Source: Collibacillus ludicampi
GTDB taxonomy: Bacteria > Bacillota > Bacilli > Tumebacillales > BOQE01
Direction: 5' to 3'
Assembly (NCBI RefSeq): GCF_023705585.1
Contig: NZ_BOQE01000001.1
Span: 3,070,710 to 3,134,709, forward strand
Length of the DNA: 64,000 nucleotides
This document shows, one piece after another, positions 26,217 through 49,595 of this stretch. Under the pieces are notes generated by a model that was not told the origin of the DNA, did no database searches, and saw only the letters and a list, made by a program, of their open reading frames with translations. Numbering within the stretch: position 1 is the stretch's first letter; every line of letters starts with the position of its first letter. A program made the position numbers and the translations under genes.

Positions 26217-26378
26217 CACTTTGTGATGTATAATGTAGACTCTATAACAGTTGTATAAGTACTTTTAAACTGATCCTGTGAGGTCGGTAAGGTAGCGGAC
26301 ATGGTTATATTTGCTGCACAACGGTTGTGTGGTCACATGCATTCGCCTCTTATCCCTCCCGGGATAAGAGGCTTTTTT
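26213..26378 (+). promoter_or_regulatory. Promoter region and PyrR attenuator before pyrR
   Basis: TTGACA at 26213-26218 and TATAAT at 26229-26234 are only 10 bases apart, so the -35 may instead pair with TAGACT at 26236-26241. The leader then holds GATCCTGTGAGGTC (26272-26285), close to the PyrR binding consensus ARUCCNGNGAGGYU, and ends in a terminator (GCCTCTTATCCC with GGGATAAGAGGC, 26345-26372, then TTTTTT). With UMP, PyrR would favour termination. This is the first of three similar leaders. Confidence 0.85.
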
Positions 26379-26393
26379 GATTCGCGAGTGTAG

Positions 26394-26951
<558 letters not shown>

Positions 26952-27105: not shown

Positions 27106-28314
27106 TTGGAAAACCAGAAAGTCATCGATGTGTCTGAAAGATTATCCTTTGGAAAATCACTCCCTTTATCTTTACAACATTTGTTTGCGATGTTCGGTTC
27201 GACAGTCCTCGTTCCCTTTCTGACCGGATTGAACCCGTCGGTCGCACTGCTTACGGGCGGCATTGGAACGTTGATCTATATCTTTCTTACCAAAGGGAAA
27301 ATACCCGCATATTTAGGTTCTTCTTTTGCCTTCATCGCACCGATTATCGCCGTTTCGAAGGCGGAAGGTTCGGGGGCGGCCATGTTTGGTGCAATGCTTT
27401 CGGGGATCGTTTATGTTCTCATCGCGGCGATTATCGCCCAATATGGTGTCGGGTGGTTGAACAGACTCTTGCCCCCCGTTGTCGTGGGATCTATCGTGAT
27501 CGTAATCGGCTTGGGACTTGCCGCGACGGCTATCGATATGGCGAAGAAAAATATGCTGATCGCATTCGTTTCTCTGGGGATCGCCGTAATAGCATCAACA
27601 CTATTTCGCGGTTTTCTTGGAGTCATTCCGATCCTTCTCGGTATTGTAGGCGGTTATCTGTTTGCATGGATGACGGGCGCGGTCGATCTTACGAAAGTAT
27701 CGGAGGCAGCATGGTTTACGGTTCCGGCTTTCACGTTCCCCAAGTTCTCGTCACTGGGAGCTTGGACGATCGCTCCTGTCGCCTTGGTCACGATCGCGGA
27801 ACATATCGGGCATTTGCTCGTTACGGAATCGATCGTGGGGCGTCCTTTGACCAAAGATCCGGGATTGCACCGCTCTATTCTCGGAGACGGTGTGGCAACA
27901 ACCGTCGCTGGACTCATCGGTGGGCCTCCTGCTACCACTTACGGTGAGAATATCGGCGTCATGGCGATCACGCGCGTGTATTCCGTGTGGGTGATCGGTG
28001 GGGCGGCGTGTATCGCGATACTGTTTGCCTTCATCGGCAAATTGAATGCGCTCGTCTCGTCGATACCGGTTCCCGTGATGGGCGGAATTTCCATCCTTCT
28101 CTTTGGGATCATCGCTTCCCAAGGGCTCCGTATGTTAGTGGACGCCGGTATCGATTTCAGCCAAAAGCGTAATCTGACCATCTCCAGTGTCATCATGGTA
28201 CTCGGGGTTGGCGGTGCTGTGATACACATTGGCGGGCTCGAAATCGGCGGAATGGCGCTCGCGACTTTCGCGGGAATCCTGTTAAACCTCATTTTGCCTA
28301 AAAAATTTTCATAA
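27106..28314 (+). CDS. pyrP: Uracil permease
   Basis: The 402-residue protein has about 12-14 membrane segments of the nucleobase:cation symporter-2 family. Diagnostic parts are SLQHLFAMFGSTVLVPFLTGLNP at the start (first part), AEHIGHLLVTESIVGR with the substrate-site Glu, and GGPPATTYGENIGVMAITR. It imports uracil for salvage. The start is TTG 27106, ten bases after AAGGAGG; a nearby ATG at 27099 is out of frame. It lies between two PyrR attenuators as in B. subtilis. Confidence 0.95.
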   Translation: MENQKVIDVSERLSFGKSLPLSLQHLFAMFGSTVLVPFLTGLNPSVALLTGGIGTLIYIFLTKGKIPAYLGSSFAFIAPIIAVSKAEGSGAAMFGAMLSGIVYVLIAAIIAQYGVGWLNRLLPPVVVGSIVIVIGLGLAATAIDMAKKNMLIAFVSLGIAVIASTLFRGFLGVIPILLGIVGGYLFAWMTGAVDLTKVSEAAWFTVPAFTFPKFSSLGAWTIAPVALVTIAEHIGHLLVTESIVGRPLTKDPGLHRSILGDGVATTVAGLIGGPPATTYGENIGVMAITRVYSVWVIGGAACIAILFAFIGKLNALVSSIPVPVMGGISILLFGIIASQGLRMLVDAGIDFSQKRNLTISSVIMVLGVGGAVIHIGGLEIGGMALATFAGILLNLILPKKFS

Positions 28315-28345
28315 AGAATGATTCTCCATCCGTGACCTTTAAGCT

Positions 28346-28437
28346 GGTCCCGTGAGACAAGTAAGGTTATGTGGATGAGCGTTGAAGACGAGAGAGCTTC
28401 GGTGCGAACTCCCTGCCTTACTAGCAGGGAGTTTTTT
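28346..28437 (+). promoter_or_regulatory. PyrR attenuator before pyrB
   Basis: GGTCCCGTGAGACA at 28346-28359 resembles the PyrR binding loop. The terminator pairs AACTCCCTG (28407-28415) with CAGGGAGTT (28425-28433) and runs into T residues. This third leader gates the biosynthetic genes. It is followed by 360 bases without a gene, taken up mainly by inverted repeats. Confidence 0.85.
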
Positions 28438-28498
28438 CATACTCTCCCTGCAGCAAGCGATGCCTGCAGAAGTGTGAATAGTTTCTCAGGAGGAGCGT

Positions 28499-28745
28499 TA
28501 TGCTTTGCGTGTGACAGCGACTTTGAAGATCGTCTCGCTTCCTTTCGGATGTAAAAGGGTATATGCATTGCGCGTAATAGCGACTTTAAAGGTCGTCTCG
28601 CAACATATGATTATGATTCCATGCGAGACGACCTTCACGGAGCATAAGCGCAATGCATATACCCGCTGAAACGACCTCCACGGAGCATGAACGCCAAGCA
28701 TATGCCCGCAATGACGACCTTCACGCAGCATGAGCGCAAAGCGAT
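28499..28745. repeat. Array of five imperfect ~40-base repeats, two inverted and three direct
   Basis: The unit reads roughly GCGAGACGACCTTCACGGAG then CATAAGCGCAATGCATATACCC. Two copies lie in reverse orientation (28499-28538 and 28557-28601) and three in forward orientation (28623-28663, 28671-28710, 28714-28745). The middle pair can form a large hairpin: 13 bp (GCGAGACGACCTT with its complement) plus 17 bp (GCGCAATGCATATACCC with its complement), around a 21-base loop. It lies in the transcribed leader between the attenuator and pyrB. It resembles REP/BIME-like or MITE-like elements; no reading frame or T tract is present. Confidence 0.8.
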
Positions 28746-28801
28746 ACATCCATCCAAGCGCAAATGATCAAGCAGAAACAAGCAACGAAAGGATGTTAAC
28801 G

Positions 28802-29755
28802 ATGATCCGTCATATTGTTGGAGCGAAACAATTTGCCCGCTCGGAGTTAGAAACGTTGTTTTATCTCGCGGATGAAATGGAAGCGATTGAAAGGAACGGG
28901 GGCAGCCAACTGCTTTCGGGGAAAATTATGGCGTCCTTGTTCTTCGAGCCTTCGACACGCACGCGTTTTTCCTTTGAGTCGGCGATGTGCCGCCTAGGGG
29001 GGCAGGTGATCTCTACGGAGAATGCTTCCCAGTTTTCCTCAGCGATCAAAGGGGAAACGCTGGAAGATACCATCCGCGTAATCTCCGGATATGCGGATGT
29101 GATCGTCATGCGCCACTATGAAGTAGGTGCGGCAGAAAGGGCGGCTGCCGTTGCGGAAGTACCTGTGATCAATGCGGGGGATGGAGCGGGCGAACACCCG
29201 ACGCAAGCACTGCTTGACATCTATACCATCCGCAAAGAACGGGGAATTGTGGATGGTACGTCTATTGCCATGGTCGGCGATCTAACGTACGGAAGAACGG
29301 TTCATTCGTTGTGTTTCTTGCTCGCGAATTACAATGATGTGACAATCTACTTCGTTTCACCACCGAATGTGCCGATTCCAGGTAAGGTAAAAGAATTTTT
29401 GCAGCAAAAAGGGGTTCGTTTTTACGAGAATGACCGCTTGCATGAAGTGGCAGGGAAAGTGGATGTGTTGTATCAAACGCGCATTCAGAAAGAGAGATTT
29501 CCAAATCGTGCAGAATATGAGAAGGCGGCCGGCCATTATACGGTAGATTACGAATTGCTGGATAAAATGAATGAGCGGGCAATCATTATGCATCCCCTTC
29601 CCAGGGCGGGTGAGATTTTGCCGGAAGTCGATGCTGATCCGAGAGCCGCTTACTTCCGCCAAGCGAAAAACGGCGTGTATATCCGCATGGCGCTTTTGGC
29701 GCACGCTTTGGGGAAACGTGACATAACAGCGATTCAGACGGCAGCACGCTACTAG
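28802..29755 (+). CDS. pyrB: Aspartate carbamoyltransferase catalytic subunit
   Basis: The 317-residue enzyme joins carbamoyl phosphate and aspartate. The carbamoyl-phosphate loop FFEPSTRTRFSFE, the AGDGAGEHPTQALLDIYTI helix and the HPLPRAGEI loop are all present. The ATG at 28802 follows GAAAGGA with eight bases of spacing; frames upstream (to 28730) run into the repeat array. No regulatory subunit (pyrI) is seen, as usual in Bacillales. It heads pyrBC-carAB. Confidence 0.96.
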   Translation: MIRHIVGAKQFARSELETLFYLADEMEAIERNGGSQLLSGKIMASLFFEPSTRTRFSFESAMCRLGGQVISTENASQFSSAIKGETLEDTIRVISGYADVIVMRHYEVGAAERAAAVAEVPVINAGDGAGEHPTQALLDIYTIRKERGIVDGTSIAMVGDLTYGRTVHSLCFLLANYNDVTIYFVSPPNVPIPGKVKEFLQQKGVRFYENDRLHEVAGKVDVLYQTRIQKERFPNRAEYEKAAGHYTVDYELLDKMNERAIIMHPLPRAGEILPEVDADPRAAYFRQAKNGVYIRMALLAHALGKRDITAIQTAARY

Positions 29756-49433: not shown

Positions 49434-49595
49434 CTACTCCTTTTCGAGTTTTTCCGGTGCAAGTTCATGCAAGCATTTGACGAGATGTTCAATAGCTTTT
49501 TGCTGTTGCTCTCTATGTTTTCCTTTCAAGTCGTTCGGTACGCCGCTGATGGCGCCGCTTGCGACTGGGCGGTTTGGTAAGATTTCTTTTTGCAC
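49434..49595 (-). CDS. Small protein of unknown function (about 53 residues)
   Basis: A minus-strand frame ends at 49434-49436, six bases before the esterase ATG, and can start at GTG 49595. The residues look protein-like: ILPNRPVASGAISGVPNDLK then a charged helix EQQQKAIEHLVKCLHELAPE. The frame stays open further upstream toward 49640, but without an ATG, and the ribosome binding site for the GTG (GAAGTGAG) is distant, so the start is uncertain. It fills the gap between the ABC permease and the esterase. I recognise no family. Confidence 0.45.
   Translation of the reverse strand: MQKEILPNRPVASGAISGVPNDLKGKHREQQQKAIEHLVKCLHELAPEKLEKE

Follow-up and report, generated by a model that had tools for sequence, protein, structure and literature searches.

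BOX elements of Streptococcus pneumoniae and S. suis are modular interspersed repeats of up to several hundred base pairs, in which constant ends enclose variable inner modules; they fold as stem-loops and possess terminal inverted repeats and target duplications, as set out in the part of PMC3049150 that is drawn on here. From the same part (PMC3049150) comes the description of two end sets in S. suis, boxA/C and boxE/F, around one type of boxB, along with the prediction that boxB units pair little with A and C, and the case of one BOX that lies between two T boxes in a trp leader. REPs, at 20–40 bp, combine a GTAG (or CGTC) tag with an adjacent short palindrome, according to extracts of PMC3733652, PMC8266576 and PMC6006769, and the extract of PMC6006769 also describes IS200/IS605 elements as using the lagging-strand template.

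In a stretch of 64,000 nucleotides from Collibacillus ludicampi (here called the window), the array of repeats that precedes pyrB represents a single copy of an element that is palindromic, modular and non-coding and occurs dispersed at well over 100 places. By analogy, the way in which the family of this element works appears closest to that of a modular repeat of BOX type that carries an IS200/REP-like end. The constant ends and variable number of inner modules, which define membership of BOX, are both found here, as are two end sets, the likeness being one of design and not of boxA, boxB or boxC sequence; moreover, the pyrB copy adjoins the pyr attenuator as the BOX of the trp leader adjoins its T boxes. 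In comparison with BOX as portrayed in the extract cited above, the family differs in having no terminal inverted repeats and in that each inner unit has a partner on the other arm, such that the element forms a telescoping hairpin. We consider it probable that the array is a copy of a high-copy, non-coding and non-autonomous mobile element which keeps this telescoping-hairpin form and is a passenger in the pyr leader. What would be new here, as a variant of the known repeat types, is a dispersed element in which the hairpin lengthens through paired blocks.

The repeat array in front of pyrB

Five units of about 40 bases lie upstream of pyrB, two in one orientation and three in the other, all at the positions given for them in an earlier description made from the letters of the DNA (the sequence-only reading). 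The two units of the first orientation (28499–28538 and 28562–28601) are 85% alike, and the three of opposite orientation (28625–28667, 28668–28710 and 28711–28753) follow each other at an exact 43-base spacing, with 81% and 67% likeness to the first of them. Two inner inverted pairs, 28557–28576/28645–28664 (20 nt, 95%) and 28589–28602/28622–28635 (14 nt, 100%), come close to the central hairpin of 17-bp and 13-bp blocks that had been proposed. The repeat unit is beyond chance, since neither its matches nor its fold are found in shuffled sequence: the 35-mer consensus of the unit, at up to three mismatches, has 1 match in the window and 0 in 100 shuffles, and the predicted RNA fold of the region (−106.6 kcal/mol, z −7.1) was equalled in 0 of 200 shuffles. 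A protein-coding repeat is rejected, as 43, the length of the unit, is not divisible by three and the number of units varies; an 83-aa open reading frame on the minus strand falls inside the repeats. A weak scan for internal promoters and terminators in the element region, which also missed the terminator of the attenuator, gave 0 against expectations of 0.7 and 0.6, respectively, and Rfam covariance models gave no match to the element with E < 1, the only match being that of the neighbouring attenuator (RF00515).

That attenuator (28332–28440, plus strand; RF00515, 44.7 bits, E 6.1e-5) comprises an antiterminator region and a terminator with a T-run and lies outside the element, between the permease gene and pyrB. 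It is the second PyrR attenuator of the window and scores below the RF00515 gathering score (44.7 against 54 bits), such that it is missed at that threshold, which the first PyrR site (26258–26379) exceeds. The open reading frames that follow the first site are what we take to be pyrR (26406–26951) and a uracil permease-like gene (27106–28314); those after the element are presumably, in order, pyrB, pyrC, carA, carB and pyrF. The element begins directly after the T-run of the terminator, and the second attenuator is thus complete. The sequence-only reading was right that the array is not part of any known PyrR system, the attenuator being a separate, whole unit just upstream. The first gene past the element, pyrB (28803–29755, plus strand), was given the start at ATG 28803, which is preceded by the ribosome-binding-site-like AAAGGATG. 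The longest pyrB open reading frame opens at ATG 28730, within the element, and encodes 341 aa; automatic annotation may therefore lengthen PyrB by two dozen residues, partly of repeat sequence.

The likely effect of the element in the pyr operon would be a structured stretch of ~340 nt in the leader. The element would sit in this 5′ leader as a passenger, with the attenuator intact. It is probably not built for pyr control, because it is missing in relatives with the same attenuator and present at more than 100 other sites. A regulated leader, running from the PyrR attenuator to pyrB, carries a hairpin insert of ~340 nt that leaves the attenuator whole, much like the BOX in the pneumococcal trp leader.

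Modular build of the element

Elements of the family are about 185–630 bp in size. In forward order, each opens with a common left end, CTAYC-TTGAAAA, followed by an outer 5′ stem, for which there are two types, A and B, by 0–4 units of 43 nt and by the apical loop, after which come 0–2 units of 63 nt, the outer 3′ stem (again A or B) and a right end, likewise common to the family, that holds a small REP-like hairpin (...GCCGCTTGCGGC...CTAYC). The long hairpin is thereby built of 1 to 5 blocks, an inner block being a 43-nt unit of the 5′ arm paired in register with its 63-nt counterpart in the 3′ arm. The two outer stem sets, A and B, enclose the same inner blocks, and their smallest forms measure about 231 bp (A) and about 185–189 bp (B). 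The types of the two outer stems match in 121 of the 133 elements that have both, the other 12 being A/B mixtures. The ends are sharp and common to the elements despite unrelated flanks. Elements often stand in tandem: 36 of 131 arrays contain more than one left end and 5 contain parts on both strands, and the 128 arrays of more than one part span 76–632 bp (median 341). In composite B-A arrays, nearly identical B parts recur at four unrelated sites, which points to a spread that, by the measure of the family, is recent.

Comparison with these other copies places the pyrB element between about 28438 and about 28776, from module matches and alignment of the ends, and on the minus strand, that is, against transcription of pyrB; the limits first proposed, 28499–28745 (~250 bases), were too narrow. 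All of its parts are on the minus strand. What we read as its decayed right end (28439–28481), judged by position and by sequence relative to the family consensus, falls below the blast threshold for the right-end module; the small hairpin is kept there with other letters, CTGCAG..CTGCAG replacing ATGCCGC..GCGGC-GC-CAT of the family. Next come a B-type right-end module (28475–28509; 77% to the consensus, blastn E 7e-4) and the 3′ arm, which consists of an outer block (28499–28538; 87.5% to the consensus of 3′-arm units, M3) and a 63-nt inner block (28539–28601; 98% to M3). The apical loop (28602–28622) lies between the arms of the innermost inverted repeat. On the 5′ arm, an inner block of 43 nt (28625–28667; 98% to the consensus of 5′-arm units, M5) is followed by a second of 43 nt (28668–28710; 86% to M5) and by the A-type left end, which includes an outermost unit of its own (28711–28776; left-end-A match at 28715–28772, 76%). 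Judged by these matches, the pyrB copy looks like an A/B mixture, its left end being of type A and its right end a weak B, which would explain the count of three units against two.

Copies in the genome and in relatives

The genome from which the window comes comprises 4.09 Mb in 7 contigs. Blastn with the pyrB element found 40 near-full places in it, these being the 40 candidates scored of 199. At up to three mismatches the right end occurs at 61 places and the 3′-arm unit at 209, with 0 for the reversed pattern in each case, and a covariance model of the inner hairpin, built from 45 diverse inner hairpins chosen from 120, has at least 150 matches. From 467 kb, mostly sequence around matches, 131 arrays of the element were parsed. 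Since these arrays were gathered around matches mostly on the plus strand, strand counts over all of them are biased, and the list of right ends is fairer; it contains the places with at most three mismatches and misses old copies such as that at pyrB. A lone 31-base stretch of the window at 49543–49572 is 87% like the small hairpin of the right end and stands without other parts of the element. No match to the pyrB element was found in phages and plasmids, nor to one exact element pattern in viral contigs.

Chance or local duplication in front of pyrB, for which the sequence-only reading had named two signs, a unit found nowhere else and an array not conserved in close relatives, is rejected. 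The first sign did not appear, as like units lie at well over 100 other places, and with no point in its favour this origin has a negligible probability. The second is correct at this site. PyrB of the window is 70–71% identical to PyrB of Tumebacillus, and in three Tumebacillus an attenuator of like layout has pyrB a few dozen bases downstream, with no element in between. Because the site is empty in these three, the element would have been inserted at the pyr site.

Beyond this site, blastn found no copy of the element in 40 other genomes, of which 13 belong to the same order and 0 to the same family, and the element pattern has 0 matches in a wider collection of genome contigs, from which the genome itself may be left out. 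The covariance model, whose E-values are rough, matches 1 of the 13 other genomes of the order, a member of another family (G004), at two hairpins (best E 1.2e-6); under stricter filters it matches 1 of 199 other genomes of the class, again G004 (E 1.8e-4). Within G004, blastn with its own hairpin gives 10 places, the query included. Several of these hairpins have an outer helix, an asymmetric internal loop and a TCGTCTTGC inner helix, with compensatory letters among the copies, and they have a similar plan and some internal-loop letters in common with the pyrB-element family, to which they are probably homologous. The few copies of G004 that were read have no like orientation bias to genes. 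A Y1 gene of G004 was considered as a partner and rejected: the clear one (E 2e-36) is not beside hairpins among the matches listed, and its locus is without like ends; G004 has one further, marginal Y1 match. Hairpins that are probably related and belong to a different family of the order would be as compatible with a conserved function as with a mobile lineage. A limited search of the open-access literature returned nothing on repeats of this kind in Tumebacillus or in the order to which it belongs.

Ends, flanks and candidate enzymes

The element has no terminal inverted repeats, the left end being TTGAAAA... and the right end ...GGGGRCTAY. The inverted repeat of the long hairpin starts ~12 nt inside the left end; on the other side, the 3′ arm is followed by an additional, small hairpin before the right end is reached. 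On the opposite strand this end reads GGTAG-CCCCCC-ATGCCGCAAGCGGCGCCAT, with a GTAG tag ahead of a small bulged hairpin, as in REPs in the extracts cited above, the pyrB copy being decayed at this point; the family resembles those REPs also in its intergenic position, high copy number and tandem arrangement. It differs from them in its size of 185–630 bp, in its second, large hairpin and in that the genome has no Y1 transposase. Indeed, a search with PF01797 (E ≤ 0.01), which was positive in 6 of 14 controls, found 0 Y1 transposases in this genome, and hence none of the RAYT type whose presence the sequence-only reading had proposed to look for; a REP driven by a RAYT is accordingly rejected. 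The broader proposal of a REP/BIME-like element or MITE is upheld as regards a high-copy dispersed palindrome with a GTAG-plus-hairpin end, and fails as regards size, Y1/RAYT and terminal inverted repeats.

In respect of IS200/IS605 elements, the family shares the lack of terminal inverted repeats, the presence of hairpins a few bases in from either end, a short motif that is conserved at the left flank and the right end, and a strand bias with respect to replication (in part after PMC6006769). It differs from them in that the genome has no TnpA, that no autonomous relative was seen and that the motif at both ends is CTAYC. A single TnpB-like gene, a 365-aa open frame in a genome with no Y1 transposase, is situated at C2:83541–83741; as a partner it was rejected, its flanks being without like ends.

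A classical MITE moved by the DDE transposase of one of the genome's insertion sequences, with its ends misjudged here, would agree with the size, palindromic build, intergenic position and high copy number. A MITE is expected to differ from this family in its terminal inverted repeats, and here TTGAAAA... faces ...GGGGRCTAY; moreover, in a test for target duplication, 5-mers of the left and right flanks gave 167 matching positions where shuffling averaged 160.6 (p 0.14; the 56 of 131 arrays with both ends). For the single elements (47), p is 0.095. We regard an origin as a DDE-moved MITE as quite improbable. Some of these results also count against the reading as a mobile element, namely the absence of a Y1 transposase, the flank 5-mers at p 0.14, and the absence of any gene between the element ends in the 131 arrays, among which no autonomous version was found.

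Position and orientation

The elements are situated between genes and are mostly oriented against both transcription and replication. With flanking genes taken from a simple ORF scorer instead of annotation, and with the 3 one-part arrays of the 131 left out, 75 of 128 arrays are opposite to co-directional flanking genes and 19 run in the same direction; the remainder are convergent (17), divergent (13) or without a gene on one side (4). A cruder ORF scorer gave 46 opposite against 10 in the same direction, with 58 arrays lacking a flanking gene. On the fairer list of right ends, 37 are opposite, 8 the same, 6 convergent, 4 divergent and 2 without a gene on one side; in other words, 37 of the 45 arrays with co-directional genes oppose them (p 1.5e-5). 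The median distance is 51.5 nt to gene ends and 63 nt to gene starts.

For replication, GC skew and gene strands yield an estimated origin near 1.5 Mb and a terminus near 3.55 Mb of contig C1. Opposite to replication are 94 of the 128 arrays, and 23 of the 30 that are convergent or divergent. In a joint fit, transcription (p 5e-4) and replication (p 0.013) both contribute, the plus-strand bias of the array set being absorbed only in part by the fitted constant. At genes that run against replication, 13 elements are opposite and 5 the same, too few to part both causes by themselves.

On the lagging-strand template, the strand oriented along the direction of replication, the element starts with GGTAG and the small hairpin, in the order of a REP. 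Orientation and end shape are suggestive, by analogy, of single-strand entry like that of IS200/IS605. Because of these two features, the element may be mobilised in trans by some enzyme while folded as a single strand; entry into the sense strand of leading-strand genes would then be entry into the lagging-strand template.

Intergenic dispersal and replication-related orientation would also be in keeping with a chromosomal protein-binding array, a BIME-like site bound by a protein of the nucleoid or topoisomerase kind. This is very improbable, there being no short site conserved above the helices, and the nearly identical B parts at four unrelated sites indicating recent spread.

Matched arms and growth of the hairpin

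The two arms of the hairpin are matched in number and in letters. The number of inner units is equal on both arms in 109 of 133 elements, against a mean of 47.5 and a maximum of 66 in 5000 shuffles, and in all 36 elements with two matched blocks in-register pairing is better than out-of-register pairing (mean scores 14.25 against 10.18). Across 120 inner hairpins, 115 of them distinct, the arms of the same copy form 2460 standard pairs out of 2520, whereas arms exchanged between copies never gave more than 2372 in 500 swaps. Compensatory changes occur at 9 of 22 inner pairs in an alignment of 45 copies; the copies are related by descent, such that counts of pairs and blocks are not independent events.

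Long hairpins with matched arms are usually taken as proof of selected RNA structure. In this regard, a functional mRNA element has to be weighed, that is, a structured leader that would set the processing (for example by an RNase III cut) or the stability of pyrBC-carAB and other messages. The strong fold (z −7.1) with its compensatory pairs would be expected of such an element, as would a bias against the transcription direction beyond that of replication (p 5e-4), the proximity to gene ends and starts (medians of 51.5 and 63 nt) and the related G004 hairpin with similar internal-loop letters. Against this, block number varies, the copies include both orientations and convergent and divergent sites, and the element is missing at the pyr site of three Tumebacillus that keep the attenuator. 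Internal loops, moreover, are no more conserved than helices (0.90–0.91 against 0.91–0.95), and internal-loop conservation was for that reason dropped as proof of a binding site. Lastly, the compensatory pairs could be obtained from template switching alone. Altogether, a functional mRNA element seems unlikely.

Template switching at quasipalindromes is said to copy one arm from the other and so restore pairing. Since template switching alone can match arms, matching arms can arise without selection. One array, C1:621729–622060, contains an exact inverted repeat of 47 bp, the next longest among the 131 arrays being 22 and the median 16; its 5′ arm repeats its 3′ arm in inverted form, with the internal loop too, and from this likeness the arm was likely rewritten by a template switch. 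The hairpin model matches both strands at C1:621729–622060, as also at C1:2711457–2711591. The asymmetric internal loop, which template-switch events erase, persists in nearly all copies. On the reading of the pyrB array as a mobile element, the arms would be kept matched by polymerase template switching, one arm being copied from the other, with or without the help of selection. The likeness to quasipalindromes hence lies in arm-to-arm copying, and the difference in that this is a dispersed family of more than 100 copies, in which perhaps whole blocks are concerned. With more than 100 copies, countable blocks, exchangeable ends and at least one apparently rewritten arm, the shares of copying and selection become measurable.

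As a further possibility, which we hold to be less likely than not, the hairpin might gain whole paired blocks on both arms in one step, through hairpin-templated synthesis by a host or a lost enzyme. The tops of hairpins might be copied or captured at a stage when the element exists as a folded single strand, of either DNA or RNA. To our knowledge, such a mode of growth has not been described for BOX, REP or MITE families, and a limited search of the open-access literature found no paired-block growth for them. If it were true, and if the G004 hairpins were homologous, block growth would be ancient. One-sided tandem growth of the 43-nt unit also occurs: two arrays, at 708208–708631 and 3627671–3628160 of C1, have four inner units on the 5′ arm against one or two on the 3′ arm.
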